This document shows, in pieces, positions 455-35,990 of a DNA stretch of 64,000 bases (within the stretch, counting starts at the first letter, position 1; every line of letters starts with the position of its first letter). A model generated the notes under the pieces. The model did not search any database, was not told the origin of the DNA, and saw nothing but the letters and a program-made list of their open reading frames with translations. The stretch is from Pycnococcus provasolii (taxonomy: Eukaryota > Chlorophyta > Pseudoscourfieldiophyceae > Pseudoscourfieldiales > Pycnococcaceae), in NCBI GenBank assembly GCA_938743325.2, contig OW568891.1, forward strand, positions 248,001-312,000. The letters run 5' to 3'. The translations under genes and the position numbers were made by a program.

Positions 455-691
455 ATGGAGTCGCAGCAGCAGGTTACCGAGCACTACTACGAGCACTATT
501 ATAGGTTATACATCGCGCAGCCGGGATACACGCAAACCACAGCCGCGCACGCTGCAGCGCACGCCGCGCGAACCGCCGTCGCGCAACAGGCGCAGCAGGA
601 GCAACAAACGCAACCTCAACAACAACAACAACAACAACACCAGCAGCTCCAACAACAACAACACCAGCAGCACCAGCAACACCAGGTTTAG
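455..691 (+). CDS. Glutamine-rich upstream reading frame, in frame with the RING gene
   Basis: This 78-codon frame starts at an ATG, has a Tyr-rich N-terminus (TEHYYEHYYRLY) and then long Gln/His runs. It ends at a TAG only 18 bases before the first ATG of the next gene and is in the same frame. Two readings fit. It may be a separate upstream ORF. Or it is the true N-terminus of the next gene, joined by a very short in-frame intron: a GT at 686 and an AG at 727 would remove 42 bases including the TAG and keep the frame. The splice-site match is weak, so this is inference. Confidence 0.3.
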   Translation: MESQQQVTEHYYEHYYRLYIAQPGYTQTTAAHAAAHAARTAVAQQAQQEQQTQPQQQQQQQHQQLQQQQHQQHQQHQV

Positions 692-709
692 AAGCAGACC
701 TTGGTGGGA

Positions 710-1615
710 ATGAAGCGCAGTGCTGAGGATATGCTCGAGCAACTGACATATGATGAGCAGCATGTGTTGAACGCGCTCGCGGACTGTGTGCCGCGAGGGT
801 CGGGTGAAATCGCCAGTGCGGTCACCTTTCTTCATCAACGCCCTATTGGAAGGACAAATGTCAAGCGCATTTTGAAAAGGCTCATTACTCGTGGACTCGT
901 GGTCAAACACTATAACAAGTGGTCGACGAATCTCTTGGATGCAGGTACTAGTGCGGGTGCTAGCAATGCACCATTTCAACCAGTTCATGAACTCGTAGCA
1001 GGTATTGAAGGAGAGCAGGTGAAACAAGTGCTGAACGCGCTCGCGGACGGCGTGCCGCGCAAGCTAGGTGAAATCGCCAAGGCAGTTTCTTTGACGAGAC
1101 ATTTGGTCGAAAGCATTTTGTACCATCTCGAATCTCGTGGACTCGTGGTCAATCAGGGCGGCATGCCGGTCAAGTGGATTGGAAATGAGCGCAGCATGGA
1201 GTTGTGGCTGAGCAACAACATGAACACGAACAACGCCTACTTGGGCGAGATGGCTAGTGAAAGTGCTGCGGATGAGGCGGCTGCTACAACCGCGGCGGGT
1301 GAGGATCAACAAGCGGCCGCTGCCGTAGACGTGGAAGTTGCTGCCGCCGCCCCTCCCACACCGGCACGCGACACGGACGCCGACGATGCGCCCGCAGACG
1401 GCAACGCGGTTAAGGCGGACGAGTGCGGCTTGTGCTTTGAGGCATTGTCGCTCGACGGCGATGGTCGCCGCGCTTTGTTCTTTCCCTGCTTGCACGCGAA
1501 GCAGTGTCTGAGTTGCGCGATGAGCGTGTGGGAGAGCACCTCTCCGACTGGCGACGTAACCTGCCCGTGGTGCAGTGTCGTGTTGAGTGCGCCCCCCGCC
1601 GCCATCTACATGTAG
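710..1615 (+). CDS. Double winged-helix (Z-alpha-like) and RING finger protein
   Basis: A 301-residue protein starting at ATG 710; the same frame is open further upstream. Residues ~10-70 and ~100-160 are two related winged-helix units sharing the core LNALAD-VPR-GEIA. The second ends in the pattern of Z-alpha nucleic-acid-binding domains: a recognition helix with Tyr (ESILYHLESRGL), then GG-M-P-V-K-W, matching the Tyr, Pro and Trp that contact Z-DNA/Z-RNA in ADAR1 or ZBP1. The usual Asn of the helix is Glu here and the second Pro is Val, so left-handed DNA binding is not assured. The middle is Ala/Glu-rich. Residues ~237-290 form a RING-type zinc finger (CxxC, CxHxxxCxxC, CxxC), which suggests E3 ubiquitin ligase activity. 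Seen: both motif sets. Inferred: a nucleic-acid-sensing or DNA-associated ubiquitin ligase. A plain wHTH repeat without Z-form specificity is the alternative. Confidence 0.7.
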   Translation: MKRSAEDMLEQLTYDEQHVLNALADCVPRGSGEIASAVTFLHQRPIGRTNVKRILKRLITRGLVVKHYNKWSTNLLDAGTSAGASNAPFQPVHELVAGIEGEQVKQVLNALADGVPRKLGEIAKAVSLTRHLVESILYHLESRGLVVNQGGMPVKWIGNERSMELWLSNNMNTNNAYLGEMASESAADEAAATTAAGEDQQAAAAVDVEVAAAAPPTPARDTDADDAPADGNAVKADECGLCFEALSLDGDGRRALFFPCLHAKQCLSCAMSVWESTSPTGDVTCPWCSVVLSAPPAAIYM

Positions 1616-1630
1616 CAATGAATACTATTC

Positions 1631-4600
1631 ATGAGTTGTAACATTACTTGCAGATTGAGTGTCGGCAGGCATTCACGCATTCACGGTTACAGATGGTTGC
1701 ATTCCGCGGAAATGACCTCCGACTTCTTGTCATGGATGTATGTTGTATCGGCGAACAATGCGAAGCATGCGAAGCATGCGAACGCCATGGCTCGCGCCGC
1801 ACGCGCATCTCCAGGCGCCGCGCGGAGCACCCTCGACGCCACCGGTGGCGTCGACTTCGGCAGCACGTACGAGTCAGCCGGGACCTCGCGTCGTGCGCGA
1901 AGCCGAAGCGCGACCGGGATCCCCAACAACTTTTCCTTTCCAGGCACCCCGTGCAAGAGAATGCAGCCAGAGAGGGATTGGAGATGTTTGCCGGTGTGTT
2001 TTTCCCGCCCCCCCCATTCTGCCTGTTGCTTTGGATTTGGTATTGGTATGGCGACGCAGGACGCTTTTTTGGACAACACCACCATAAACGAAGCAGGCGA
2101 CGCGAAGAAGGTGCTTGGTGCTGGTGGTCATTCTGCTGGTGCTGGTGGTGCTGGTGCTGGTGCTGGTGGTCATTCTGCTGGTGGTCATTCTGCTGGTGCT
2201 GGTGCTGGTGGTCACTCTGCTGGTGCTGGTGGTCACTCTGGTGCTCGTACTAGTAGTCATTCTCCTGCTCATCGTAGTCATTCTCCTCCCTTGCCTTCAT
2301 CCTCCTTGTCGTCATCTGCACGGTTTGCTCGTGATATCTCACGTCTGCTTCACTGGTTTTCTTTGTCAGCTGCCTCGAACGATGATGTTGTCACAACCTC
2401 ATGTGGCGATTCTTCAGAAGCACAGCTGATGATGATGATGAATATTCGATACGATGTTCTTGTACGCGTATTCCAATATTCGCAGGACATTTCCGCGGAT
2501 GCGATGTTGACGACGCTCGCTGGCTTGCACAAGCACGCGCACGGTCACACGTTAAAACTTGAGGGAATCGCGCAAGCGCCGGATGAAGATGCATACCTCG
2601 CGGCACTCCTCGCGGCTTGCATACGGCACGAAAAGTGCAAAACGTTGCCTGAGTTTCCGGCGATGATCGAGGGCGCTCTGCACGCAACACCCGTCATCAC
2701 CGACGACGACGACGAAGAAGAAGAACGTGATGACATCTGGGATGCAGCCGTACGGGCGTCCGTGCAAGCCGCCTTGGAAGGTGCAAGCTGGAAAACAACA
2801 GCTATGACGACGACGACCACCACCGCCACCTTGCCAGCGCCCATACACCTTCTCGTTCACGCACTTCGACGGGAAAGCGATGCCACAAAGTTGACGCCTC
2901 TTACCAAAACGCAAAACGCCGGTGAAGTCGTGTGCCGAGCAGCTACGGCGCAACATCGTGTGCAGCGCACCCTCGTCCCTCTGCTCGAACAACTACTTCG
3001 TGACGCGCGCTCGGAAAATGATCATGTCAGCTCGGTACTCGTCACAGCTCTGCAGCCAATCGTGTCGACGGCGACGACGCTGCCGCTCGTTGATCTAGCA
3101 AAGCGTGCACCTCGCACATTTCTCGCAGCACGTGGCAGCCTTCTCAACCAAGACAGCGCGTGGAGGGAAGCCTTGCGTGCAGCCGCAGAGGATCATGTGC
3201 CGAGAGACCCGTCCAATCCATCACACGTCAGTGCCAACACCACGTCTCCGCCTCTTGCTCTCGTAGCTTGGCACGCTGCGAACAATCCCGACGATGATGA
3301 CATGGTACTTCGTGTTTGTTCCTACGCGCTCAACGCGTACTTGGGCGAGCCTGTGAGTGGCATTGCGGCATACACGCTTGGCTGGAATTTGATTAGGTGG
3401 GCGGAGGTCTACAGAGAAAGTTCACGTCTGACTGCCATTGCAAAGCAGGTAGAGCATCTTGTCGTGAAGAATGATACGATTGCCACGGCATATCTATGTG
3501 CGGCATCTCGTATGGTGATGAGCTCCTCATCGACGTCACCAAGGGTTGTGCAGATGCCCCAGACCAACAGCGCGGCACAGACGACGACGACGACGACGCT
3601 GATGCCGGCGGCTCAATGCGCAGAGGCACTCTTTCTCTGCGAGGCGGCTGCGGCATCAGGTACGGCCGATGAGGAGGCTCAGAAGAAAGCCGCTTCCGTC
3701 ATCGAAGAGCACGGGAAGCATCGTGAATTCCGTATGGAGCTTGCCGCACGCCTTACGCCCTTGGAACATGTCGAGTCGCTTGTTTCCGGCTTTGTTGCGG
3801 CGGTTCAGCTTTGCATCGTCGTACGTGACAATTGTGCGCACGACACCTTTACGAGTGCGATTCCAGATCCGCTTCCGCCGCACTGCGCTGCGGCGTTGCT
3901 GTGCATGTCGCTCTTTGCTGAAGGAGAATGTCACGACGACACGGCGCGTCGACTCGCAGAGGCACTTATGCCCGCACTCACTTCTCTGTGGATGTCGGAT
4001 GTCGCACAGCTCGGTAAGGTGTGCGAACCGCATCTCAGGCTGATCCGCCGTGTCGCCTCGCCGTCATTCGCCGTGCACCTCTGCCTGCTTTCGCGCGGCG
4101 CGTGCGGCGCATTTGCCGCCGCATTCGCGCCGTTTTCTGGATCTGTTGAGGGCGCTGCGGAGATTGTCGCCGCCGCCGAGGCATTGGATCAGAGTGGCAC
4201 AGCCGCGTGCGCGTCGCCAGCGATTACCACGTTCGTATCGCTGCCAACAGTGGCGGCGGCGGTGGCACATGACGCAACGAGTGCACATGCACCTCGGCGC
4301 ACCGACGCCATCGGCTTTGTGAAGGCTCTCTGCCAGGCTCCCGACCGTGGCGGCGATGACGCACTCGTGGCTATCGTGGATGCTCTGTGCAGTCACGCCG
4401 GTCGTGCAAGCGACGAGGCTATTCGCATTGTCGCTACCGCCTGTTCCCAGCTTCCCGTGAATGCGTCTCTCCATCTCGCTCAGCGTTGGCTAGCTTCGCT
4501 GGCTAAGATGGGTAGCCCCTTAATGCTCTCGTTTGGACTTCATTCCGTTGGCGCGTGGCTTCGAGGAAGTGCTTGCTATGACGACGACAGCAACTACGAT

Positions 4601-4843
4601 GCCACTTTGGCGCTCGCGCGCACGCTAGGTAATGTTGCAGCACAGGGATCAACGGGCCCTTGCGAGGCGTCTGTGCGTCGACTCGTGCGCGCACGCGCGG
4701 TGGAGGCTCTAGGCGCGCTCTCTTGTGCCGCGGCGAAGGCTGAAGCACGGCGTTTGAGCAAGCTGCTGGGCCGCGACGCACGCCGCGGCGTTGCCGATGC
4801 AGCTTTTGTGTGTGGATGTCTCAGGGCTGTGTCACTTTTGTAA
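1631..4843 (+). CDS. Large alpha-helical protein of unknown function (HEAT-like)
   Basis: The frame runs 1070 codons and begins only 15 bases after the previous stop, so the first ATG (1631) may be too early; ATG 2048 (MATQDAFLDN) is an in-frame alternative. The N-terminal third is low complexity: a Gly-Ala-His-Ser repeat (about 2115-2265) followed by a Ser/His/Pro stretch. From ~2430 onward the protein is a long series of Ala/Leu-rich amphipathic helices with Cys, typical of HEAT/ARM-like solenoids, broken by an acidic loop (DDDDEEEER, ~2700) and a Thr run. No signal peptide or membrane segment stands out. I do not recognise the family. The solenoid shape suggests a protein-interaction scaffold, but that is inference. 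Confidence 0.6.
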   Translation: MSCNITCRLSVGRHSRIHGYRWLHSAEMTSDFLSWMYVVSANNAKHAKHANAMARAARASPGAARSTLDATGGVDFGSTYESAGTSRRARSRSATGIPNNFSFPGTPCKRMQPERDWRCLPVCFSRPPHSACCFGFGIGMATQDAFLDNTTINEAGDAKKVLGAGGHSAGAGGAGAGAGGHSAGGHSAGAGAGGHSAGAGGHSGARTSSHSPAHRSHSPPLPSSSLSSSARFARDISRLLHWFSLSAASNDDVVTTSCGDSSEAQLMMMMNIRYDVLVRVFQYSQDISADAMLTTLAGLHKHAHGHTLKLEGIAQAPDEDAYLAALLAACIRHEKCKTLPEFPAMIEGALHATPVITDDDDEEEERDDIWDAAVRASVQAALEGASWKTTAMTTTTTTATLPAPIHLLVHALRRESDATKLTPLTKTQNAGEVVCRAATAQHRVQRTLVPLLEQLLRDARSENDHVSSVLVTALQPIVSTATTLPLVDLAKRAPRTFLAARGSLLNQDSAWREALRAAAEDHVPRDPSNPSHVSANTTSPPLALVAWHAANNPDDDDMVLRVCSYALNAYLGEPVSGIAAYTLGWNLIRWAEVYRESSRLTAIAKQVEHLVVKNDTIATAYLCAASRMVMSSSSTSPRVVQMPQTNSAAQTTTTTTLMPAAQCAEALFLCEAAAASGTADEEAQKKAASVIEEHGKHREFRMELAARLTPLEHVESLVSGFVAAVQLCIVVRDNCAHDTFTSAIPDPLPPHCAAALLCMSLFAEGECHDDTARRLAEALMPALTSLWMSDVAQLGKVCEPHLRLIRRVASPSFAVHLCLLSRGACGAFAAAFAPFSGSVEGAAEIVAAAEALDQSGTAACASPAITTFVSLPTVAAAVAHDATSAHAPRRTDAIGFVKALCQAPDRGGDDALVAIVDALCSHAGRASDEAIRIVATACSQLPVNASLHLAQRWLASLAKMGSPLMLSFGLHSVGAWLRGSACYDDDSNYDATLALARTLGNVAAQGSTGPCEASVRRLVRARAVEALGALSCAAAKAEARRLSKLLGRDARRGVADAAFVCGCLRAVSLL

Positions 4844-4987
4844 ACAACGATGTACCACCAACTATGTACGATATGTGATGCTATAAGCTGTAAAATTCAA
4901 GCCTTTATATGTAATTACAAGACTTGAACTTGTTCTGACTCTTCCCTCCCTCCATTCTACTTTTATTTTTCTCCTTTTCCCCAGTTT

Positions 4988-5896
4988 TTAGCGGAAGAGC
5001 GTCGCAGCGACGAAGAGGGCGGCGATGGGAACGACGTTGGTGATTGTCGTGATGTTGAGCATGTACCAGCGCGGGAGCATGAAGCTCGTGGACTCTGCGA
5101 GCGCGTTGGGCAGCCACTTGACGAGGATAAGAGCCATGCCGAGGGAACCGAACGTCATCAGGAATCCTCGCGCAAGTCTCTTTGAAGACGCCTGGCTCTG
5201 CTCTTCGCGGCTGGCTGACGGTGAGGATGCCTCTCCGTACCGTCCCAGTTTCTGGACGAGTCGGATGACGAAGATGATAGCCGCGGTGATGACTGGCTGC
5301 AGCTGAGCGTACGGGCTCTTCAGTGCCCAGGCGATGCATACGAGTGCGATGACGCCGTTGACGATGGCCTCGTTCCTGGGGCTAGGTGCCCACCTTGGCA
5401 GCCACGGTGCGCTGGTGTAGACGCCGTAGTTGTCCGCGAATGCCACCTCCTTGGAGACGGCGGAGGATTTCCCGCTCATTCTGTCTGTGAGCTGCCTCAT
5501 GAGTATGCGGCTGTGTGCGCTTTCGATGGCGTCGAGCGCGTCTTTGTTCCCTCGGTTTTGTGCCAGCTTGGACTTGTATGCGCGGTTGATCGCATCGGTG
5601 TCCGAACCTTCGGGACAACCGAGGATTGCGTACGGGTCATCGTCCCCTCCTCCTGCGGCTGCAGCCCCTCCCGCAGCTGCGTGCACCTTTGTGGAACTCC
5701 TCCTGCACCAATGACTCTGCATCGTGGAAATGGTGCGCGAAAAAGATGCTTGGAAGTGACGCAATTCTCCTGCATCACTAATGGAGGCTGACACTGGCAG
5801 AGGCGTCCTCCTGTGTCCTGAGACACAGACACGCTTCCGAGTGGAACCGGCACAATGAGAGTGGCACGAACGAGCAGACGTGCGAGAGACGGACAT
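4988..5896 (-). CDS. CPP1: CPP1/DUF3353 J-like plastid membrane protein
   Basis: 302 residues from the ATG at 5896; the frame extends 28 codons upstream, but this start is followed by a Ser/Arg-rich, acid-poor stretch that fits a plastid transit peptide. Residues ~89-142 form a J-like module (YAILGCPEGSD...INRAYKSKLAQN...AIESAHSRIL) without the HPD tripeptide of true DnaJ proteins. Three to four hydrophobic segments fill the C-terminal half. This is the arrangement of CPP1 (chaperone-like protein of POR), also known as cell growth defect factor or DUF3353. In plants it stabilises protochlorophyllide oxidoreductase at plastid membranes. The gene is divergent from the FtsH-like plastid gene on the right, with 368 bp between the two ATGs. 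Confidence 0.82.
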   Translation of the reverse strand: MSVSRTSARSCHSHCAGSTRKRVCVSGHRRTPLPVSASISDAGELRHFQASFSRTISTMQSHWCRRSSTKVHAAAGGAAAAGGGDDDPYAILGCPEGSDTDAINRAYKSKLAQNRGNKDALDAIESAHSRILMRQLTDRMSGKSSAVSKEVAFADNYGVYTSAPWLPRWAPSPRNEAIVNGVIALVCIAWALKSPYAQLQPVITAAIIFVIRLVQKLGRYGEASSPSASREEQSQASSKRLARGFLMTFGSLGMALILVKWLPNALAESTSFMLPRWYMLNITTITNVVPIAALFVAATLFR

Positions 5897-6264
5897 TGTA
5901 TTGTATTGTTTGTAGGATAGATACAGCGAGACAACAACAGGTACTTGTTCACCGTCGTTTTTGCCAAGAGACACCAGCACAGAGTAGAGTTTGTTGTGGA
6001 TAAGGTGAGAAAAGGGGCCGGGGCGCCGCCGACCCGCCCCTACTAAAAAGTGGTTTCACCTTTAAATAAATTGATTGTGGGGACCCGTCCTTGTCGCTTA
6101 TGGGCAGTCGAGTCAGTCGTTCGGGGTTTTGCATTTTGCCTTGGAAAGATTCTAGACCTATAGATAAGATTTTCGTTCATGTCGTTCCGTGTGAGTTCGG
6201 GGTTGAGATTTTTCCTTTCACAATTCGTTCGGAAACGACTGTGGTGTGGCATTTATTTGTCGAC
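5897..6264. promoter_or_regulatory. Shared divergent spacer of two plastid genes
   Basis: The 368 bp between the CPP1-like start (minus strand) and the FtsH-like start (plus strand) must hold both promoters. The frames run open through part of it from both sides, so true transcription starts could lie inside it. I see no clear TATA box. TTTAAATAAATTGATTG at about 6060 is the most A/T-rich patch. Confidence 0.4.
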
Positions 6265-7599
6265 ATGGCTACCCTTACTCTTATAAAGGTCGCGCAGCAT
6301 AGGCACGTGCGTTCACCGGTGCGTTCCCCGTCTCTCCGTGTATCTCGTGGTGTATCATCATCCATGCACATGTTTTCTCGTTGTTTATGTGTTCAAGAGT
6401 CATGCATGTTGAATCAGGCTACAAGAGGAATCGTTCATAAGGGTCATCATCATCGTCGTCGTCATCAGTGTGCGTCTTCTTCTTCTTCTTCTTGTGTTCC
6501 ACGCAATCTTCGTGGTGGCACCACTTGTTTACTTGGCGTGTCATGGCATTCACGGGCAAACGTGTCGCGTTTGCAGGCAAATGCGTCCGACGACGATAAT
6601 AAGAATAAGAATAATGAGGGAGAGCAAGCACCCTTGTCGGTGTCGGCACCCTCGTTGGACGTTCGAGCGCTGGACGCGTTGATCGCGCCTAGTGGGAACG
6701 ATACGGCGGCAGACGCGGCGGCAGAAGACGACGCCATCTCCATGGTCTCCACACTTCCCCTGTTTGGGGCGAAAACACAGGCAGTTCCCAAAAGAGACTA
6801 CACGCTCGCGGAGCTGCGCCTCAACAACGTCGAAGCGTCGAGATTTTTATCACCCACGGATCAAACGCTCAACGCGACGAAAACGAGACTAGGGTACGCT
6901 GCACTAGCGGCGCTCGCGGCGACGACGTTTACCTTCCATTTGAGCGCGTGGGGCATATTCGGGCTCGCCTCGACGACGCTCTTCCTGCTCACAGCGGATG
7001 CAGTCGCCTTGAACGGTGCGGCGTCGTTCGTGCTGATTGACACCGCCGCGAGAACACCTGTCATCGGAGGAGGGAACTACGCGGACCGCGTGCTCGTGCA
7101 CGAAGCTGGCCACTTCCTCGTCGCGTACACGACAGGTTTGCTTCCCAAGCGGTACACGCTCACGGCGCTCGACGCCCTGCGCAAGGCTGTGGGGCAGCGC
7201 CTCGCGGCGTTCGGCACGAACGCGCCTCCGCCACCCACCGCCGCGCTATCCCAGGCGGGTACGGAGTTCTGCGACGGCGCGTTCGCGCGCGAAACGGCCG
7301 CTGGCTCCATTAGCAGCGCGACGCTCGACACGGTCAGCAACGTCGCTCTCGCGGGAATTGCCGCAGAGTACGTGGTGTTTGGCCAGGCAGAGGGCGGCGT
7401 CGACGACATTGCGCAGCTTGACGGCTTGTTTCGCAGTCTGGGGTTTACGCAAAAGCGCGCGGACAGTCAGGTGAGGTGGAGCGTTCTGAACAGCGTGACA
7501 ATCCTCCGGGAGTGTCAAGAGGAGCACCGCCGCCTCATGGACGCGATGCGCCGTGGCGCGACCGTCGCGGAGTGTATCGCCGCCATCGAGAACATGTGA
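6265..7599 (+). CDS. FtsH-like M41-type plastid peptidase without AAA domain (VIR3-like)
   Basis: 444 residues from ATG 6265; an in-frame ATG at 6091 exists, but the later one opens directly into an Arg/Ser/His-rich plastid-type transit region. Hydrophobic segments lie at ~210-265. HEAGH at ~279-283 is the zinc-metallopeptidase signature. Near the C-terminus AEYVVFG-x8-DDIAQL resembles the second metal-site region of M41 peptidases. There is no Walker A/B module, so this is not FtsH itself. The layout (transit peptide, membrane anchor, HEAGH, no AAA) matches the plant VIRESCENT3/'stress-regulated' family of chloroplast FtsH-like proteases needed for chloroplast development. The identification rests on motifs and architecture. 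Confidence 0.72.
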   Translation: MATLTLIKVAQHRHVRSPVRSPSLRVSRGVSSSMHMFSRCLCVQESCMLNQATRGIVHKGHHHRRRHQCASSSSSSCVPRNLRGGTTCLLGVSWHSRANVSRLQANASDDDNKNKNNEGEQAPLSVSAPSLDVRALDALIAPSGNDTAADAAAEDDAISMVSTLPLFGAKTQAVPKRDYTLAELRLNNVEASRFLSPTDQTLNATKTRLGYAALAALAATTFTFHLSAWGIFGLASTTLFLLTADAVALNGAASFVLIDTAARTPVIGGGNYADRVLVHEAGHFLVAYTTGLLPKRYTLTALDALRKAVGQRLAAFGTNAPPPPTAALSQAGTEFCDGAFARETAAGSISSATLDTVSNVALAGIAAEYVVFGQAEGGVDDIAQLDGLFRSLGFTQKRADSQVRWSVLNSVTILRECQEEHRRLMDAMRRGATVAECIAAIENM

Positions 7600-7876
7600 G
7601 TCACGTACGAAATGAGAATTCGTGCTTCGTTTTTATTTTTATGAGATCCCTCATTCAGTAATGAAGTGTACTTTACTCTGTCCAGCCGCTCCAGCGGTCG
7701 TCCATTCACACCATTCACTTTCACCATTCAGCCCATTCACCGGTGCCATTCAATGCGCGTTTTTGTACATATGGCGCATTGTAAGATAGCCACTCGACTT
7801 GACCACATTTCCCTAGGATTGTTGTCTTACAAAAACCACTGGTTGATAATGAAAAGTTACAAAAAACGTTTTAGAA
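7600..7876. other. Short convergent spacer
   Basis: This lies between convergent stops. It contains CCATTCAC-type direct repeats at about 7700-7750. No gene is seen. Confidence 0.5.
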
Positions 7877-9289
7877 CTAGGCTCTAGCTCCGGCTCCCGC
7901 TCCGGCTCCCGCTCCGGCTCCCGCTCCGGCTCCCGCTCCGGGCGGAGCGTCGCGTCGGCAACCGCCGGCAATGAAGCCGTCCACCACTCTGAACAATGCA
8001 GTAAGCGTCGGGAAGGGCTCGCCCCTGGTCTCGTAGGAGCTCCACAGCATCTTCTCTGTCTTGGTGCGCCACAAACCCGTGCCGTACTCGCCGTGGAAAC
8101 CGCCCCCGACGCCTGTACCACATCCGTGCACGATGAGGAACGTCTTGCGCGCCATACGCTCAGTCACGGGACAAATGGCCGCGCTGAGGGCGGGAAACTC
8201 TCGTTCGAAGTCGAGTTTTTGAACCTCTCCCGGGCGCATGTGCACGTGGGCCTCGAGTATCGTCGGTCTCTGCCAGCCTCGATTGACGCCGCTGTCTGGT
8301 TCGAATACCGCGAAAAAATCCGTCTCGCGCGTCCTTTTTGGGTCTCCTCGTGGGTCGATCATAAAATGGATGAGGTCTAGCGGCTTGTCCTTTAGCTTGT
8401 CGGCCGGCAGCCCGTGAGTGATTGCCATCTCCACCCGCGTATTTCTTGTCTCGCATGCACGGATCTCCGCGACTTTCTCCATGTTGTGAAACAGCTCGCC
8501 ACATGGCATGCGCCGGGCATCGACGCGGGTCCCAGCGTCCCATAACATCATCCACGTGTGCTGCTCGCCGTACTTCGCTATCTGCGCAGGTTTCATAGGA
8601 TGCGCCCACATGCCCTTGCCAAGATCGAGCCGCACGCCTTGTCCGCGCATCTCAGCCGCTAAGTGCGGGTACGCCTCGTCGACGCACGGCGGCCCCCTTT
8701 GGATGTCCTCCTCCTCGCGCGGCCTTTTGCGGGTGCATAGCTTGCGTGGGTACTCCGCCTGAGCGGCGGGGGCGTCCCCGGCGGCATGCTCACCCTCCCG
8801 CTTGCGCTCCGTCGCGACGGTGACGGTGAGCACCATTACGTCATGTCCGTCAAGAGATGTCCTCTCGCCCGAACCGTAGCGGAACACCCAGCTGGCGCCT
8901 TCGTGCACCTTCTGCACGCCAGGGTTGTCGAAGGCGTTGTTGATGCCTCCTGGCTGTTTGAGAGGTTTGTGTGCGTCGAGGTGGTAAAACTCGTCCCCAA
9001 CGCGGTGAAACATCCACTTGTGGTCGCTCATGGAGAGTTCCATGTGCTCGAAGATGGCGCGCGCCACGACGGTCAGGGTGTGCGATCCGAGCACTTCTAA
9101 TTCCAGTAAGGGCGCGGAGGATCGACCCACATCACGCGTGACTTTCAAAGTAAGAATTATCCATGATGATGAGTCCAACAAGTGGGGAGCTGAAGACTGA
9201 GCTGGAGACTTCAATGAAGACGAAGGTGCCAAGTCCATGAGTGCTGCCGCCATAGCTGGAGACTTTGAAGACGAAGGTGCCAAGTCCAT
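7877..9289 (-). CDS. PRiA4-ORF3-like domain protein with Gly-Ala tail
   Basis: 470 residues. The N-terminus holds an imperfect duplication (MDLAPSSS-KSPA twice); the DNA repeat (9206-9242 and 9259-9295) spans the start codon, so the true start could be either copy. Residues ~43-165 (WIILTLKVT...LLELEVLGSHTLTVVARAIFEHMEL...HKWMFHRVGDEFYH...WVFRYGSGER) resemble the plasmid pRiA4b ORF-3-like domain: a beta hairpin, a helix, then an aromatic-rich H-x-F/W unit and the closing 'Y-FG' strand. The domain is common in bacteria and often mobile-element-linked. The rest (~190-440) is soluble and unrecognised. The protein ends in a (Gly-Ala)n tail from a GCTCCG/GGCTCC microsatellite at 7880-7945. The function of this family is unknown. 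Bacterial acquisition is possible but unproven. Confidence 0.55.
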   Translation of the reverse strand: MDLAPSSSKSPAMAAALMDLAPSSSLKSPAQSSAPHLLDSSSWIILTLKVTRDVGRSSAPLLELEVLGSHTLTVVARAIFEHMELSMSDHKWMFHRVGDEFYHLDAHKPLKQPGGINNAFDNPGVQKVHEGASWVFRYGSGERTSLDGHDVMVLTVTVATERKREGEHAAGDAPAAQAEYPRKLCTRKRPREEEDIQRGPPCVDEAYPHLAAEMRGQGVRLDLGKGMWAHPMKPAQIAKYGEQHTWMMLWDAGTRVDARRMPCGELFHNMEKVAEIRACETRNTRVEMAITHGLPADKLKDKPLDLIHFMIDPRGDPKRTRETDFFAVFEPDSGVNRGWQRPTILEAHVHMRPGEVQKLDFEREFPALSAAICPVTERMARKTFLIVHGCGTGVGGGFHGEYGTGLWRTKTEKMLWSSYETRGEPFPTLTALFRVVDGFIAGGCRRDAPPGAGAGAGAGAGAGAGAGARA

Positions 9290-9828
9290 GAGTGCCGTGG
9301 ACCACTGGTACCAAGAAAGAAAAATACCTTAAGTAAAGTTTTAACGTGCTTTTGGAATTTGAAAATTGGGAAGATTCGTGTCGTGCGGGCAGAGCTCTGG
9401 GACCCACGAGATTGGCACAATATGTACTTGTAGCTTAAAATCCGGCTGTTTCTTTGCATGGATGCAACATGCAAAATGCCCTAACCTTAAACGTTTTTTT
9501 TTAAGGTACCCGTAGTTCTTATGTGTGTAGGCTGCTTGAAATAGGCTGCTAAGGTTAGGAAGGAAAACGACTTGATCAAGGAAAGAGCCGTTGGTTTGGT
9601 TGCGGCCTTGCGGGTACCTTGCAAGACCTCCTTGCCAGTTGCATTTTCCTCCATACCACTACTCCACTAGACTATCAGGAGGAGGAGGAGGACTGGTTCG
9701 AGCTTGATCAAGTTGCTTTGACCATCATTTGCAAATCAAGTTCAACAACCCCTGGAGGCTTTGCCAGTTTGACTTGCTTAGTCGAGAGATTACAGTAATT
9801 TTAATTATTTTACAGTAAAAACTTACAT
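9290..9828. other. Gene-free spacer
   Basis: No coding signal. Lower GC than its neighbours, with a few short repeats (GGTACC(C/T) near 9505 and 9613; AAGGTTAGG near 9550). It leads into the tandem-repeat array. Confidence 0.45.
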
Positions 9829-10480
9829 CGGAGAAAGGATATTGCCATATTGCCATCGCTCGATGGACCCACCTAAGGTTAGGATAAACTCGAGCGATTA
9901 AGTCGAGCGATTACACACTGTAGGTCGGAGAAAGGATATGCCATATTGCCATCGCTCGATGGACCCACTAGGATAAACTCGAGCGATGAAGTCGAGCGAT
10001 TACACACTGTACGTCGGAGAAATGATATGCCATATTGCCATCGCTCGATGGACCCCCTGGGATAAACTCGAGCGATTAACTCGAGCAATCGATTACACAC
10101 TGTACGTCGGAGAAATGATATGCCATATTGCCATCGCTCGATGGACCCCCTGGGATAAACTCGAGCGATTAACTCGAGCAATCGATTACACACTGTACGT
10201 CGGAGAAAGGATATGCCATACCTTTAGGGGATATTGCCATCGCTCGATGGACCCACCTAGGATAAACTCGAGCGATGAAGTCGAGCGATTACACACCAAT
10301 TGGTCGGAGAAATGATATGCCATCTTGCCATCATGGACTCGATGGACCCACCTGGGATAAACTCGAGCGATGAAGTCGAGCGATTACACACCAATTGGTC
10401 GGAGAAATAACTTTAATGTGCCATTGCCATCCTCCCTGGCACCTAGCTAGAGGTGCACCGAGGATTCCGTCGGAGAAATG
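9829..10480. repeat. Tandem array of a ~90-105 bp unit with an internal inverted repeat
   Basis: A CGGAGAAA(G/T)GATATG motif recurs at about 9829, 9926, 10015, 10108, 10201, 10305, 10400 and 10470. Each unit carries CCATCGCTCGATGGACCC and, downstream, CTCGAGCGATTAA and GTCGAGCGATTACACAC. ATCGCTCGA and TCGAGCGAT are reverse complements, so every unit can fold into a hairpin. The last two copies are degraded. No coding function is evident. Confidence 0.85.
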
Positions 10481-10514
10481 ACATTGGAAAGGAAAGGAAT
10501 TGGCCGACTTGTTA

Positions 10515-10786
10515 CAGTCATTTGTTCTCAGTTGGCCTGACTTTTGAGGCTCTTCATTAAAATAACTTTTGCAAATCGTCGAACTTTTTTGGTCGGCAGA
10601 TTTGGTCGGGGCCCTCAATGCCGCATTTTTGCGACCAAAATCTCCCGTTCAACAACCTTTTGTTCTCGAAAAGTTTGCCAATAGTTCTAATCGAGTTCGA
10701 GCCCACCGACCAAAAGTTTGCCAAAAGTTTGACGATTTTTAGTTCCCAAAAAGTCAAAAGTCTGGCCAACTGAGAACAAATGACTG
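10515..10786. mobile_element. Tc1/mariner-like MITE
   Basis: A 272-bp element begins CAGTCATTTGTTCTC and ends in the reverse complement. The inverted repeat is about 33-35 bp with one mismatch and contains the GGCC-x-GACTTTTGA block typical of Tc1 family ends. TA dinucleotides flank both ends (10513-10514 and 10787-10788), the target duplication of Tc1/mariner. The interior is A/T-rich with AAAAGTTTG motifs and no transposase frame, so it is non-autonomous. It lies 94 bp upstream of the ATG of the next gene, inside its likely promoter. Confidence 0.85.
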
Positions 10787-10880
10787 TACAAGTTTGTTTG
10801 ACTTTTCAGAACGTCGTTCCCATCTCACTTAATTATTAGACCCTGTTCGTTCATTCTTCTTCATCCTCGGGCAACATAAC

Positions 10881-28441: not shown

Positions 28442-29272
28442 GACGAAGACGAAGACGAAGACGACGAAGCAGCTGAACCCAAACACTCCTTAACAAGGAG
28501 TAGCTTCCTTACCCAACAAACTTACCAAAATTGACAGACTTCACTCTTAAGAACACAGCTAAACACACTACGATAGAGACACAGCTATCTTGAAGACTTG
28601 AAAAAAAAGCGAGCCTTAAGACTTCGCTTTAAGCGTGGATCGATCTTTGGGCGAACAGACAAGACACGGAGAGCAGATCAGAGCAGAGCAGTCCTGGGAG
28701 AGATATGTAGAGCTCTACCTACGATAGGTTATGGCGGATATGTACCTTTAAGGATAGAGGAGTGGGGAATGATGAAAGTGGGTGATGCCGCTCATGCGCG
28801 ACAAGCCTCGTGCAAGCCAGCTGGAGCACTCTCTTTTGTGCAAGGTGGCGGCAAGGCGACTCCTGTCGTGCTCGTGCTCGTGCTCGTGCTCGTGCGCTTT
28901 TGCTTTGGCTTTTGCTTTGGCTTTTGCTTTTGCTTTTGGGTCGCTTTTTCTCATCCGATTTTTCAGCTTGCATGCATCTTCAAGAGTTGCTCGGATCGCA
29001 CATCGTCCCATCGAAAGCAGTCCATGCATGATTCGGAGAGCCTCTGATGTCTGAGCTGGACACATCGCGATGCACTCTGATGTTTCGCCACTTTGTTGGA
29101 CATCGCATCGTCGATATTGTAGTACTATAAAACGCGACGTTTACATAGCTCGACGACGTCTCGACGGATTCGCATCGCGGCAAGACGCTGAAAGATCACT
29201 TTCAGTCGCTTTTGTGTCCCTTTTTAGGGTCGGTGACATCGTTCCACACCGGTGGTTCTGGTCGGCCCTCCC

Positions 29273-29367
29273 CTTCCCAGCCCTCCTCCCTCTTCCCAGC
29301 CCTCCTCCCTCTTCCCAGCCCTCCTCCCTCTTCCCAGCCCTCCTCCCTCTTCCCAGCCCTCCTCCCT
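29273..29367. repeat. Five-copy 19-bp tandem repeat
   Basis: The unit CTTCCCAGCCCTCCTCCCT starts at 29273, 29292, 29311, 29330 and 29349 with no visible variation. Confidence 0.93.
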
Positions 29368-29574
29368 CAAACTGTGGCGTCGTCGTAGGTACGTTCATGC
29401 CTTTCCGGCAGTTTGCTTGCTTTTGCCTTCCACTTGTTGTCTTGCATTTGCGCTGTGGGTGGTGTGCGTGTCTTGCTTTGCGGAAGGCCTTTCGCCTTGC
29501 GCATGAACGGGGAAACGCGTGTGGTGCGAGTGCAAAGCGTGCGAGTGAAAAGCATGAGTACTTGCCGGCGACGG

Positions 29575-29925
29575 TGCGGCTCGCACCATGCTTGTCATGG
29601 CGTGGCGGGCACGCGCGCGCCACCGTCTTGGCCAACAAACCGTGCCGCGCGTCAGTGAGAGGACGAGGAGAGTGATGCGCGCGCATGGTGGCGTCGTCCG
29701 TGTCCTCGTCGTCGTCGTCGACATCATCGTGTTGCTTAAGGTGTTGCTTAAGGTGTGCGGCTCGCATGCCTGTCATGGCGTGGCGGGCACGCGCGCGCCA
29801 CCGTCTTGGCCAACAAGCCGTGCCGCGCGTCAGTGAGAGGACGAGGAGAGTGATGCGCGCGCATGGTGGCGTCGTCCGTGTCCTCGTCGTCGTCGACATC
29901 ATCGTCCTCGTCACAAAACTCTTTT
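29575..29925. repeat. ~178-bp tandem duplication
   Basis: TGCGGCTCGCA...TGTCATGGCGTGGCGGGCACG begins at 29575 and again at 29756. The copies stay nearly identical through the GAGGACGAGGAGAGTGATGCG block and the GTCGTC run. A two-copy TTGCTTAAGGTG repeat lies at the junction. Confidence 0.85.
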
Positions 29926-30200
29926 TTTTTTTTCAAACCACTCACACGCACTCACGCACATACACACGCGCGCGCACGTACATAAACAAAAAGAATAGGA
30001 TGGGGCTTACGCACCAAAACGCGGTCAAACATGGCCGAAAGGTCGTAAGCCCATGCTGACTCACTACGACAATACTGCAATGATATTACAGCACTACTTC
30101 GTGATCACTCCCGCTCCCGCTCCCGCAGGCGCCGCTCCCGCTCCCGCTCCCGCTCCCGCCTGCACCGCATCTTCATCGTCACTGAGCAAGCCGCTGCCGC

Positions 30201-31097
30201 TCACGATGCCGCTGGAGGAGGCGGCGGAGGCACGCTGCAGATACGGCACCGAGTCCTGCGGCTGCCATGCTCGCAGAACGACTGCGGAGAGCAGACACGG
30301 CAGTTACTCCTCATGATGTCATGCTCGCAGAACGACTGCGGAGAGCAAACACGGCAGGTACTCCTGCGGATGTCATGCTCGCAGAACGACTGCGGAGAGC
30401 AAACACGGCAGGTACTCCTCATGATGTCATGCTCGCAGAACGACCCGCCTCCGCAGATACGGCAGTTACTCCTGCGGATGTCATGCTCGCAGAACGACCC
30501 GCCTCCGCAGATACGGCACCGAGTCCTGCGGATGTCATGCTCGCAGAACAACTGCGGAGCGCAGACACGGCAGTCAAACCTGTGGATGCCATGTTCGCAG
30601 AGTGCGTACTGTGACGGCAAAGTTGGCTCGACTCCTGTTACTGTGCAGTGAACTGTACGGTTGAGCACACCGTGTAGCACTGCGAGTCCGTGCAGTGTCG
30701 CCTCGCAAAACGCGCACATGTTGCGTGAGACGAAGAACACCAAACCTTCAAGAGGTGTGCTTTCAGCGAGCAGGCGCCCTAGCGCCACGTCCTCAGCGTG
30801 CTCGCCAGGTTCGCCGCCACTGTTCTTGACGGTAAAGAGCACGCTCGCTCCTCCCACAACATCCGCAACCGCACGCTCGATGAAAGCATTGAACAGCGCG
30901 GGCTCTCTGTGAGCGCGAGCGACGACGTCTGCTGGCCTCTCGCCCTCCTTACGAGCACTGTCGAATGCGTCGTCGCCCGCGCTCAGGCTTATGGATGCGA
31001 TCGCGATCGGATGTGCGTGCATTCGCACCACACTCACCGTGGTCCCAGACGAGAACATCGATGCACCGCTCGCACTCCTTGTCGTCACCCTTGGCAT
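30201..31097 (-). CDS. Putative deaminase-fold protein with seven CEH-CxxC repeats
   Basis: 298 residues. Residues ~70-145 follow the cytidine-deaminase-like order: helix (FNAFIERAVADVV), strand (SVLFTVKN), helix opened by HAE (100-102), strand (LEGLVFFVS), helix opened by CxxCE (128-132). HAE and the CxxC pair, 26 residues apart, are the zinc-binding and catalytic signature of that superfamily. Residues ~167-292 are seven 18-residue tandem units of the form FCEHDIxRSxCRxC(S/G)xxS, each with two Cys, one His and one more Cys suited to bind zinc. Similar C-H-C-C repeats occur in algal and giant-virus proteins. Seen: motifs and repeat spacing. Inferred: a nucleotide or nucleic-acid deaminase with a zinc-ribbon-like binding tail. 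The ancestor and substrate are unknown; a repeat protein with only a chance HAE/CxxC match is the alternative. Confidence 0.62.
   Translation of the reverse strand: MPRVTTRSASGASMFSSGTTVSVVRMHAHPIAIASISLSAGDDAFDSARKEGERPADVVARAHREPALFNAFIERAVADVVGGASVLFTVKNSGGEPGEHAEDVALGRLLAESTPLEGLVFFVSRNMCAFCEATLHGLAVLHGVLNRTVHCTVTGVEPTLPSQYALCEHGIHRFDCRVCAPQLFCEHDIRRTRCRICGGGSFCEHDIRRSNCRICGGGSFCEHDIMRSTCRVCSPQSFCEHDIRRSTCRVCSPQSFCEHDIMRSNCRVCSPQSFCEHGSRRTRCRICSVPPPPPPAAS
30240..30600. repeat. 54-bp coding tandem repeat
   Basis: Seven copies of a 54-bp unit (TGTCATGCTCGCAGAACGAC in most copies) encode the 18-residue Cys-His repeats. Neighbouring copies differ by a few bases, with two sub-types (GGGGS and SPQS linkers), which suggests recent expansion or gene conversion. 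Confidence 0.9.
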
Positions 31098-31370
31098 GTT
31101 GATGGCAGTAACTAATTGGTTAAAAAAAAAATTCCAGGTTAGGGTTTCAGGGAAGTGGGTTAGGGTTCAGGTTAGGGTTAGGTGGTAATGTCGATTTTAG
31201 GGGTTAGGAGTTTGGGGGTTTGTGCTGTGAGTTATTTTAGGGGTTTGGATTTGGGGGTGAAAAAACAAAAAAAAAGTAACGGCAATACAGCACGCGCGCT
31301 TCATCATGCGCGCATTCATGCACGCGCATGGCGCGCGCGCACCCACCCACCCACGCACACGCACGCACAG

Positions 31371-31447
<77 letters not shown>

Positions 31448-31677
31448 AAAAAAACACACAAAAGTGAAACGCACGCGCGCATCCTCCCACCACCATGCCA
31501 TGCGCGCGTGCATGCGCGCGTGCATTGCACGCGCGCATGGCTGACCACCCGCGCACCACCCACCCACCCTACAAACAGAACGCCATCGCCACATCAAACC
31601 TCCCCACCACCCACGTACCTCAAAAGTTCCGAAGGCAGAATTGCAGAGAATGAATGTGAAGAGACCTGTCTTTGTTT
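31098..31677. other. Telomere-like and microsatellite spacer
   Basis: 31138-31210 is a degenerate TTAGGG/TTAGGGG tract. 31262-31272 is an A-run. 31371-31442 is a (CA)n microsatellite broken by A-runs, bounded by CATGCGCGC-type palindromes (31310-31335 and 31495-31540). No gene is seen. Confidence 0.6.
31138..31210. repeat. Interstitial telomere-like tract (TTAGGG type)
   Basis: GGTTAGGGTTTCAGG, GGGTTAGGGTTCAGG and TTAGGGTTAGG follow one another, then GGGGTTAGG. Degenerate but clearly of TTAGGG type. Confidence 0.75.
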
Positions 31678-31827
31678 GATGCAGGTCAGCCCCTTCCGGC
31701 CACCTTTAGGTAGGCCCTGATTCAGGCGAAAAACGTCTTTAGGTAGGCCCTAGGGCCTACCTAAAGACTTTAGGTAGGGGGTCAGTTTGGTCGCAGATTT
31801 TGCGAAGGACGCGAGTTTGGGGGTTTG
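31678..31827 (+). repeat. Left 150-bp terminal inverted repeat
   Basis: Identical by eye to the reverse complement of 34428-34577. TTTAGGTAGGCCC motifs occur three times within it. Confidence 0.92.
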
Positions 31828-31975
31828 CCGGGGTGCGCCAGGCGCTCAGTGCTGACAGCACCACCACCACTGCCACTGGCGCTTTACATTCAGCGGAACG
31901 CCTGGCGGCGCGCACAGCCAGGACGCAGTACGACAGGACCGAGGTGTGCGGGCAGTGCCCTGCCGACGCAGCGTG

Positions 31976-32221
31976 ATGGTCAACGTCGACGACGACACGG
32001 ACAACTCCGTGGTCGTCACCACCTCGACCTTGCGCGGAGGCTTGGAAGGACATCTGCAGTGCCATGTGCAGTGCCAAGGGGCGAACAAGCAGGGCTTCAC
32101 CCACGCGTTCGTACCGACGAATCCGAACGCCACAGGCAAGCGGTTCACGGCAACGACACGGCCATGTGTCGTCATCACCGAGGAGTTCGAGAAGGCCTGC
32201 AAGCGTCGGCATGGACACTGA
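31976..32221 (+). CDS. Small frame overlapping the ZIP start
   Basis: 81 codons from ATG 31976; the open frame reaches further upstream without an ATG. It ends in a TGA whose A is the first base of the ZIP ATG. The product (VDDDTDNSVVVTTSTLRG...TEEFEKACKRRHGH) is not recognised. Its first ~50 bases are a near copy of the first bases of the ZIP frame (32226 onward), so this may be a duplication relic and not a working gene. Confidence 0.3.
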   Translation: MVNVDDDTDNSVVVTTSTLRGGLEGHLQCHVQCQGANKQGFTHAFVPTNPNATGKRFTATTRPCVVITEEFEKACKRRHGH

Positions 32222-33232
32222 TGCGCGACGTCGACGACGACACGGACAACTCCGTGGTCGTCCCCACCTCGACCTCAATGATCGACATGGCCGTCGCGCA
32301 CGCACACGCACACCAGCTCAACCGCCAAAAGCAAGCAGCTGACGACGTCGACTTTGGAACGATGACCATCGTCGTGCTCGCCATGGCGCTCTTCGCGGGT
32401 CTAGGCGTTCTGCCGCTGTACGTCGCAAAGGTGGACGCCACGTGGGAAGGACCAGGACTCGCCGTGGCGTGCGGCATGATGCTTGCCGCCTCGTTCGACC
32501 TGCTCGAGGATGGGTCGAACGGAAACGCGCTTGGGACGACTCTGCCATATCTCGGAAACGCGGGAAGTCACAAGGTGGCATTGCTCGTAGGTGCGCTCTT
32601 GGGAATCGCCACCATGGGTTCCGTGAAGCGTTTCTTCTCGGGCAACGGCGACGACGGCGACGACGACGACGACGACGCAGCCAGGCAGATCGTCAAGGCG
32701 CTCAACGCTGCGGGCATGGGAAACACAAAGGACGATCTTTGCCAAGGACCAGGGCAGAGAGAGGAGCTGAGTAAAGCCAAGCAGGTGCAGTGCTTGCTGT
32801 ACTTGCTCGTCTGCCTGTGACTTGCTCGTCTGCCTGTGCATACACAGCGGCGAGGGTATCTCCATGGGTGTCGCATTCAAGGCGGAGAGGGGATGGCAAC
32901 AAGGCGTGCGTGTAGCCTTCAGCATGGGCTTGCATAACGCGTGCGAAGGACTCGCCATCGCGCTCGTGCTCACCAGCAGCGGCTTTTCCAACGCCGCGGG
33001 AGCATTCTGGGCAATCATCACTCACCTGCCTCAAGTGCCTGGCGCGATGCTTTTCTACCTTGGCGCGCAGCACCTCGCCTCATGGCTTCCCGTGCTGCTC
33101 GGATGGGCCGGTGCGTCCATCCAAGCAGAACGACGAAAATCCCGACGCCGTGCGCGCTCGCGAGGCGAGGCGAAGAAGCGCGTACAGCGCGTACTGCGAA
33201 AGGGGGGGGCAGCCGCTGCGCGGCCACTTTGA
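32221..33232 (+). pseudogene. ZIP-family metal transporter, frame-shifted
   Basis: The frame starts at ATG 32221 with a His-rich segment (MAVAHAHAHQL). Hydrophobic helices follow (TMTIVVLAMALFAGLGVLPLYV; LAVACGMMLAASFDLLEDG; HKVALLVGALLGIATMG), then an Asp-rich variable loop, and it stops at 32820. The next frame continues with IHSGEGISMGVAF and MGLHNACEGLAIAL, the two metal-site helices (H-S/N-x-x-E-G) of ZIP transporters, and two more helices. The shift comes from a 19-bp tandem duplication, ACTTGCTCGTCTGCCTGTG at 32801-32819 and 32820-32838. The family moves Zn/Fe/Mn into the cytosol. The allele read here should give a truncated protein lacking the metal site unless the assembly is wrong. 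It lies inside the TIR element. Confidence 0.75.
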
Positions 33233-33399
33233 CCCGAACACCAGCGTGGAGCTGAATACCGGCCTGAGGAGGAGCTGCTGAGCCGATTCGACGTCGTGCT
33301 CGTGCTCATGGACTCCGCCGACGAGGCTTGGGACCGGCGCGTCGCCGCGCGTAACTAAAACTTTAATACTTTAAATTATTACTGTAATTTAAAGTTTTC

Positions 33400-34293
33400 T
33401 TAAAAGTAGGCAACTTTTAACGCAGGACAAGATTCTTGTAGCATGGCCGCAGCTGTCCAAGGGAACACGCAGGTAGGCAACGCACCGACCTGTGTAGTAG
33501 GCGGTGTTGGCGACGAACAACGAAACGTGAATTCCAAGTGTTCAACACGGTTCCAAAATGCGCGTAAGACATCATTGCGAAAGACAAAAACTTCTCCTCT
33601 TCTGCAATCGTCACGGGCGACTGGTCGCATTCGCGTGAAAAGGTCGATAGGAGGAAACAATAGCGCCGGGTGTATGCCACGTGAAGAGCACTTTGCAACG
33701 ATATTGTCGTCACCATATAAGCGTGACAAGTCCTCGCTAAGTGAGCTAGGACGTTGTGTCGATGAACTTGGAGTATCGTCGTCTGTTCCGTTTTCGTCCT
33801 GACCATTTAGCACGCAGCCTTCGTCATAGAAGACCACAGGTGCGCGCGTTTTATCGGAAACTGCAACAAAGACTTTATACGTATCGCATTCGGATTCGCT
33901 GTCAGACTGTAAGGTGTGCGGATATCTCAGCGCACACCTCTTGTCGTTGTCGCTCGGTCCGCCTTTAAAGAAAAGGCCTTCGACACTCGGAGGAACAAGC
34001 TCCCGCGCAATGGGACCCGGCTGAAGCGGCGCGCGTATGAGTCTCACCCCCTCTCGTGCAGTGTTTGCGATTCTCACAAATGTTTCAACGACTTCAGGAT
34101 GTGCACTCACACATTCTTCGACACTCCCTTGGCCACAGGTTGTAAGACCTTTCAAGACGTCAACTTCTTCGGCAGAAATGTCTACAAAGGAACGGTACAC
34201 ACCCGAGACGTTAGACGCCTTTCGCTTCCGCGACCAAGCACCGCTGTTCGTATTACAAACGGCCACCTTTTCAGTAGTCAGCGTATGTCGCAA
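33400..34293 (-). CDS. Unrecognised frame inside the TIR element, no ATG
   Basis: An open frame of 297 codons that begins after an upstream stop and has no ATG before ~230 codons in; the first possible initiator is TTG at 34293. The protein is globular-looking, with charged and hydrophobic alternation (EEVDVLKGLTTCGQGSVEECV; YKVFVAVSDKTRAPVVFYDEG; RRGEVFVFRNDVLRAFWNRVEHLEF). The strand pattern 'GEVFVFRNDVLRAFW' recalls the late jelly-roll strand of 2-oxoglutarate oxygenases, but I see no HxD...H set, so I do not assign it. It may be a 5'-truncated gene, or its first exon lies upstream. It is convergent with the ZIP frame. Confidence 0.45.
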   Translation of the reverse strand: MRHTLTTEKVAVCNTNSGAWSRKRKASNVSGVYRSFVDISAEEVDVLKGLTTCGQGSVEECVSAHPEVVETFVRIANTAREGVRLIRAPLQPGPIARELVPPSVEGLFFKGGPSDNDKRCALRYPHTLQSDSESECDTYKVFVAVSDKTRAPVVFYDEGCVLNGQDENGTDDDTPSSSTQRPSSLSEDLSRLYGDDNIVAKCSSRGIHPALLFPPIDLFTRMRPVARDDCRRGEVFVFRNDVLRAFWNRVEHLEFTFRCSSPTPPTTQVGALPTCVFPWTAAAMLQESCPALKVAYF

Positions 34294-34427
34294 CCGTTGG
34301 GCGCGTGGACGCGGTTAAGGTTGTACTCTCTCCACTCACTAATTAACCACTGATGCCCCAAGTCAATTCACCAATGGAGGACCTGTCCCCCTTAACAACT
34401 GCAGCTCGCCGGGACTGACAGCTGTGA

Positions 34428-34577
34428 CAAACCCCCAAACTCGCGTCCTTCGCAAAATCTGCGACCAAACTGACCCCCTACCTAAAGTCTTTAGGTAGGC
34501 CCTAGGGCCTACCTAAAGACGTTTTTCGCCTGAATCAGGGCCTACCTAAAGGTGGCCGGAAGGGGCTGACCTGCATC
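34428..34577 (-). repeat. Right 150-bp terminal inverted repeat
   Basis: Reverse complement of 31678-31827. The matching arm ends at CTGCATC, followed by CCTTAAGAGGG outside. Confidence 0.92.
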
Positions 34578-35359: not shown

Positions 35360-35990
35360 ACGACCATACCAAGTCGCATGCGCGAGGCGAAAGTTGATCG
35401 CAGAGAACATCATCCTCAATAACGTCAAGAATAAGCCGTCCATCAAGCGAGACAACAACAACATCATGTGTTTCATCATCATCATGTTCTTCTTCTCACG
35501 CACGAGTCACGACGACATAGGACTTACAGTATATAGATAAATAAGTGCCACGAGCACCAACATATAAATATAAATATAAATACAAATAAAATCAAAATAA
35601 AATAAATAAAATAAAGAGACATATATACTGTAACTACTTTCTTTCTTTCTTTCTTTCTTTCTTTTTTAAATAAAATATTATATCAAGATTCGACAAGGCA
35701 CACCCAGCTAGCTGAACACATGGGCCATGATTCGCTTGTCAGTCATCCCACGCTGCCAGGGGCGTTTTTCCTCCCACCCGAACCCTAATCCTAACCCTAA
35801 CCCTAACCCACCTAACCCTAACCCTAACCCTAACCCTAACCCACCCTAACCCTAACCCTAACCCTAACCCTAACCCTAACCCTAATCCTAACCCATTACC
35901 CTAACCCTAGCTTAAGTGGTGGTGTCGTCGTCGGCCTCTCTCTCTTACTGATATTTGTGTTAGACTTATAGAATACTGCTTTAAAGAGAT
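35360..35990. other. Spacer with CTTT microsatellite and telomere-like tract
   Basis: ATAAATATAAATATAAA and AAATAAAATAAA tracts at 35560-35620, a (CTTT)n run at 35638-35663, and a CCCTAA array at 35781-35910. No gene. Confidence 0.6.
35781..35910. repeat. Interstitial telomere-like array, (CCCTAA)n
   Basis: About 18-20 units, mostly CCCTAA, with CCCACCTAA, CCCACCCTAA and CCTAATC variants. The longest clean run is at about 35847-35883. It lies 80 bp upstream of the HAD gene. Confidence 0.92.

Follow-up and report, generated by a model that had tools for sequence, protein, structure and literature searches.

Structure of the locus

We analysed a window of 64,000 nucleotides from the alga Pycnococcus provasolii (C31:248001-312000) and searched its sequence against the 32.3-Mb assembly of 46 contigs. 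An imidazoleglycerol-phosphate dehydratase frame of the window shares 99% identity over 300 aa with the P. provasolii protein. Positions 31678 to 34577 hold an element bounded by inverted arms, which enclose a fragment of a ZIP transporter gene and a truncated open frame. In the following list, coordinates refer to the window, and C1, C2, C3 and C29 are other contigs:

29267..31677, plus strand: left flank, duplicated with the element's left part on C1 and C29 (sequence match)
31678..31827, plus strand: type B arm forming the left terminal inverted repeat; complementarity of 100% with the right arm; 16 exact genomic termini
31678..33407, plus strand: left block, C2 bases 1-1729; 99.1% identity over 1,730 columns, arm differences counted
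31735..31768: perfect 34-bp palindrome of the left arm, with two inverted CTTTAGGTAGG motifs
32338..33121, plus strand: ZIP gene fragment in two frames, codons 74-332 of a 389-aa relative on C3 (Pfam and codon comparison with C3)
32801..32838, plus strand: 19-bp tandem duplication disrupting the ZIP frame; absent from C3 and from an arm-less copy on C29
33400..34293, minus strand: unknown frame, a truncated 408-aa element protein; 99% identity to residues 90-381
33408..33416: junction left by a deletion, filled with 9 nt; about 7.95 kb of C2 element sequence absent
33417..34285, plus strand: right block, C2 bases 9676-10544; 99.8% identity over 869 bp
34286..34427: unrelated dispersed repeat in place of C2 bases 10545-10736; 23 genomic matches, its own included
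34428..34577, minus strand: right terminal inverted repeat, arm type B; 100% complementary to the left arm; 16 exact termini
34487..34520: perfect 34-bp palindrome of the right arm (folding and sequence)

A preliminary description of this DNA had reported identical inverted repeats of 150 bp, and sequence comparison within the window confirmed them to the base: the arms are 150 nt long, 100% complementary and spaced by 2,600 nt. For a perfect inverted repeat of this size, a chance match is excluded. False arms are unlikely because the published CCAP190/2 assembly (32.2 Mb, 44 chromosomes plus two organelle genomes) rests on 444-fold HiFi coverage, as given in the excerpted genome note (PMC11130579). 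The palindrome described for each arm is indeed perfect and present in both, with a length that we read as 34 bp rather than 32; it folds into a 15-bp stem with a 4-nt loop. The motif CTTTAGGTAGG occurs in four copies per arm, covering 44 of the 150 arm positions.

In the neighbourhood, a 298-aa cysteine-rich frame (30201-31097, minus strand) runs over 54-bp tandem repeats (30237-30606) with CEHDIRR..CR.C units; it has no informative Pfam match and belongs to the stretch that C1 and C29 hold as a duplicate. Two 142-bp direct repeats (29587-29728 and 29765-29906) are 96% alike and 178 bp apart from start to start, and an intergenic array of telomere-like CCCTAA-type repeats occupies 35773-35900.

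A low-copy family with 8-bp target duplications

The whole arm has at least 24 matches in the genome, at least 13 of them full length. For its outer 24 bases we found 16 exact copies and two more with one mismatch, against 0 matches for the control. The exact termini belong to 11 loci, five two-ended and six one-ended, so the arms are by no means confined to the window:

Two-ended copies: window; C31:79340-83575 (C31b); C2:659333-670221; C22:437278-445793 (C22b); C17:505061-505460
Loci with a single terminus found: C1, C4, C8, C20, C22:388603 (C22a), C29

The family includes a miniature copy of 400 bp. Perfect 8-bp target duplications (GTCTACAC, CGAGCTTG, AGAAATCG and CTCAAATC) flank four of the five two-ended copies, namely C2, C31b, C22b and C17. 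Around the window copy there is no such duplication (3 of 8 flanking bases agree), presumably because its right end has been rearranged. No empty insertion site was found in the genome, and transposition is therefore inferred from the target duplications. A Class II element is marked by terminal inverted repeats whose ends are fixed across several loci and by target-site duplications of constant length; the family has both, and the window copy taken alone lacks the second. A real, low-copy family of Class II terminal inverted repeat (TIR) transposons with a broken gene fragment is thus well supported. Separately, the element's first bases recur with 1 mismatch in 24 at C5:1140497 and C27:522461, in both cases within a repeat that is different apart from a second match, to element bases 2629-2693.

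Relation of the window copy to the full-length element

The C2 copy (10,889 bp) was the sole two-ended full-length copy found. It carries counterparts of both 'genes' of the window plus frames of 246 and 1,540 aa (positions within the C2 element):

About 667-1444: ZIP fragment
1722-2459, minus strand: 246-aa frame
2858-7477: 1,540-aa frame
8881-9390: 170-aa frame
9590-10813, minus strand: 408-aa frame

Expressed in C2 coordinates, the window copy consists of bases 1-1729, the 9-nt filler, bases 9676-10544, about 140 bp of foreign repeat and the right arm. The filler sits within GTAGGCAAC, and the same 9-mer recurs about 56 bp inside the right block, a sequence pattern that would fit templated filler at a repaired break. 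Internal deletions differ in position between copies, that of C31b joining about 3106 to 9717 and that of C4 about 8841 to 9693. Within the stretch compared, C4 matches C2 over 1-8841 and 9693-10244, and the genome search with the outer 24 bases found no exact terminus at its far end. C22b is rearranged by about 2.65 kb inserted within its right arm; element bases 76-81 flank this insert (about 6563-9213 of the C22b sequence) on either side, perhaps as the short target duplication of a different element. Within C2, a 190-bp segment upstream of the ZIP fragment (351-540) is 86% identical to 4296-4473, bases that belong to the 1,540-aa frame of the same element.

About 2.4 kb of left flank is common to the window, C1 and C29, and the element matches continue there to base 1300 (C1) and 1428 (C29). 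Since the flank is shared alongside the element, one duplication took in both. For the right flank, the single genomic match is itself.

The unknown frame noted between the arms exists, not as an independent gene but as a truncated copy of the 408-aa element protein. The protein collection holds 4 homologues of that protein, of which two reach 96% identity, and more distant relatives (about 30-50% identity) occur in the genome on C9, C26, C16, C15, C31 and C33 among others. Four of these distant relatives, at 30% identity, are C31:3121-3786, C33:3986-4651, C16:752880-753545 and C15:756039-756704; their open frames span 360-371 aa, and three of the four lie within about 5 kb of a contig end. 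The predicted structure of the window frame reached a mean pLDDT of 37.2, or 29.2 with an alignment of 4 sequences (the window frame and three of the four collection homologues; P0004, whose second half diverges from the others, was excluded).

The ZIP fragment

ZIP-related sequence does lie between the arms, but the transporter described there is not intact. The pieces at about 32338-32817 and 32822-33121 represent 259 of the 389 codons of the C3 relative; both ends are absent, and the 19-bp duplication breaks the frame. The preliminary description had proposed to look for an intact ZIP parent elsewhere, and an intact relative was found at C3:771951-773120 (389 aa; Pfam Zip, 47.6 bits at a cut-off of 35.1). 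All 7 arm-bearing copies that reach the site carry the 19-bp duplication (window, C2, C31b, C22b, C4, C29 and C1; the match of C22a ends at the site and was left out of the count), and the break is therefore probably older than the spread of these copies. We saw no arm-less locus with the window's two genes together, only a partial copy of the ZIP segment at C29:236.3-237.5 kb, 98% identical and free of the duplication. Compared with C3, the parts before and after the break have dS values of 0.39 and 0.32 and dN/dS values of 0.39 and 0.11, and the source of the fragment was therefore probably a constrained relative of the C3 gene.

Two arm types

Type A comprises 8 of the 13 full-length arms listed; these are mutually identical and identical to the C2 arm. 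The type B arms of the window depart from type A at 9 of 150 positions, and every one of these falls within the four CTTTAGGTAGG copies (probability 1.6e-5 under independence of the changes, an assumption that probably fails for several of them, which are adjacent). The changes at 65/66 and 83/84 preserve palindrome pairs, and the change at 80 breaks one. Over the element interior (151-1130), 1 of 980 positions separates the window copy from C1, C29 and C2. The arm of C22a is a mosaic: its first seven variable sites are in the B state and its last two in the A state. This mosaic and the near-identical interior indicate that arms exchange sequence independently of the interior, and both window arms may have been converted to type B.

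Candidate transposase and the KDZ superfamily

As the preliminary description had stated, the DNA between the arms appears to lack a transposase: a Pfam search of three frames (31825-32817, 32822-33229 and 33400-34290) gave no transposase match. A recognised transposase domain was likewise absent, by Pfam, from every protein of the family, and the frames of the C2 element other than the ZIP fragment had no informative Pfam match. For the 1,540-aa frame, Pfam gave no family at E<=10, the protein search scored 7,991 candidates with no match at E<=0.001, and the best PDB match was at chance level (E 0.57). A virus-like element was considered and rejected, this frame having no matches in viral contigs or PHROGs. 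Between C2 and C4, 7 of its 1,536 codons differ, all of them changing the amino acid and 0 silent; with so few differences, and none silent, selection on the frame is unsupported. Third-position G+C is 0.48 for the 408-aa frame; the 1,540-aa and 246-aa frames have 0.71 and 0.77, and one host gene has 0.79. The 1,540-aa protein could well be the transposase of the family and is the likeliest candidate among its proteins, a tentative assignment that we hold just short of even.

The 246-aa frame has a weak match to 2OG-Fe(II) oxygenases in PHROGs (E 0.0041), where an endonuclease V family scores similarly (E 0.0077). It has no Pfam family at E<=10, and a TET/JBP dioxygenase is ruled out by that test. 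Its HFD residues, which we take to be part of the 2OG iron site, are retained in a relative on C26. There, at C26:178500-186500, a 642-aa frame is followed by relatives of two element frames (C26:179-183 kb; 38% identity to the 246-aa and 45% to the 408-aa frame), and the 642-aa frame matches the CxC4 cluster 'associated with KDZ transposases' (E 6.8e-13). In the element's own frames, no CxC cysteine cluster was found.

It is conceivable, if on balance doubtful, that the 1,540-aa protein is a diverged transposase of the KDZ (Kyakuja-Dileera-Zisupton) superfamily and the 2OG-like frame its accessory gene. Target duplications of 8 bp, as found here, are described for Zisupton and a Dileera lineage in the available part of PMC12730594, which also gives them as usual in hAT and reports 7-bp duplications and no TIRs for Kyakuja families. 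According to excerpts of PMC12477816, KDZ elements can top 10 kb, their transposases can exceed 1,300 aa, and accessory genes occur. The CxC4 frame next to relatives of two element frames on C26 also speaks for this assignment. Against it, the 1,540-aa frame shows no similarity above chance either to the CxC4 frame or to the C31:3121, C33:3986, C16:752880 and C15:756039 loci, and it has no Pfam domain. The genome search for KDZ was empty as well, though its controls were equally silent. The link of the family to KDZ is thus circumstantial, and we do not file the family there, since the 1,540-aa frame shows no KDZ domain and no similarity to the C26 frame. A bolder idea, which we regard as unlikely, is that the 1,540-aa protein is the first member of a new transposase superfamily, or of a KDZ branch too distant for profiles, and travels with a 2OG-type oxygenase, that it binds the four CTTTAGGTAGG copies per arm, and that arm types A and B represent a switch in specificity. 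If so, the confinement of all nine differences to CTTTAGGTAGG, with the palindrome largely paired, would be the mark of a specificity switch within one family.

Origin of the window copy

The preliminary description offered a host-gene-capturing transposon and a cassette flipping between its arms. Long, perfectly matched inverted arms could recombine, and the C22a mosaic tells that arms do exchange sequence. However, all three loci with the common left flank (C31, C1 and C29) have the same element end facing the flank, the other family copies behave as transposons, and the broken ZIP frame leaves no working gene whose orientation could be switched. An invertible cassette in which arm recombination flips the ZIP segment is therefore very improbable and was rejected as the main reading, together with the suggestion that inversion would change the orientation of a metal-transporter gene. 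A functional ZIP gene with arms beside it by accident is more improbable still: the dN/dS values point to past constraint, but the missing ends and the identical break at several loci led us to reject an intact transporter.

Gene capture by a transposon family, in contrast, holds in substance, given the termini, the target duplications and the C3 relative; what falls away is capture by the small copy itself. A Pack-type element proper would be a short non-autonomous element that took up the ZIP fragment between its own arms. TIRs around a gene fragment with an intact relative and no recognised transposase agree with this, and we nevertheless find it improbable: the fragment, with the identical frame break, is also present in the 10.9-kb, putatively autonomous copy and in partial copies, so that the window copy inherited it.

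Very likely, then, the window copy as a whole is a deleted, non-autonomous Class II TIR copy of an 8-bp-duplicating family with a ZIP passenger. It would derive from a 10.9-kb family member by the observed loss of about 8 kb, which left a short filler and may have occurred as in aborted gap repair. Flank and element would then have been duplicated, as observed on three contigs; a later rearrangement of the right end probably removed the target duplication, and gene conversion may have turned both arms alike as type B. Such a copy would be mobile only if a transposase worked on its arms in trans, and the ZIP piece, judging from its broken frame, would be passenger DNA rather than a working transporter.

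No publication describing this element was found in literature searches, and the main text of the genome note (PMC11130579) contains 0 occurrences of 'transpos' and 'repeat'. The family thus looks new, yet of a familiar kind of element, and it does not look like a working metal-transport switch. An apparent metal-transporter gene of the P. provasolii genome is probably passenger debris, a warning for annotation. One culturable marine alga offers a full-length copy, deletion derivatives, a 400-bp miniature, a captured fragment with an intact relative, and two arm variants, so that gene capture and arm homogenisation can be put to the test, as can the identity of an orphan candidate transposase.

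Comparison with known systems

KDZ elements have been reported in Chlamydomonas relatives (excerpts of PMC8226300) and in brown algae, and a 31.7-kb KDZ element moved in Chlamydomonas (excerpts of PMC12477816). The present element resembles the KDZ of algae and fungi, as far as these are described in the available parts of PMC12477816, PMC12730594 and PMC8226300, in size, 8-bp duplications, a very long protein, an oxygenase-like accessory frame and a CxC4 relative in the P. provasolii genome; it differs in that no KDZ or CxC domain was found in its own frames. Fungal DNA transposons carrying TET/JBP dioxygenases (PMC12730594, in part) share with it a dioxygenase-like frame inside a DNA transposon, but the 246-aa frame has no Pfam family and its 2OG match is weak.

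In land plants, Pack-TYPE transposons have TIR ends enclosing a coding-gene fragment (PMC8903248, whose available text contains 'alga' 0 times), and the short copy without a recognised transposase is alike in this. Here, however, the fragment is also found in the long copy, beside the orphan 1,540-aa frame. Internal deletion derivatives of the Ds kind retain their ends and lose the middle, with varying breakpoints. Their own arms and proteins are unlike those found here, and the mobility of the window copy is a prediction; the likeness is that the window family, too, keeps its ends and loses its middle, with breakpoints that vary by copy.
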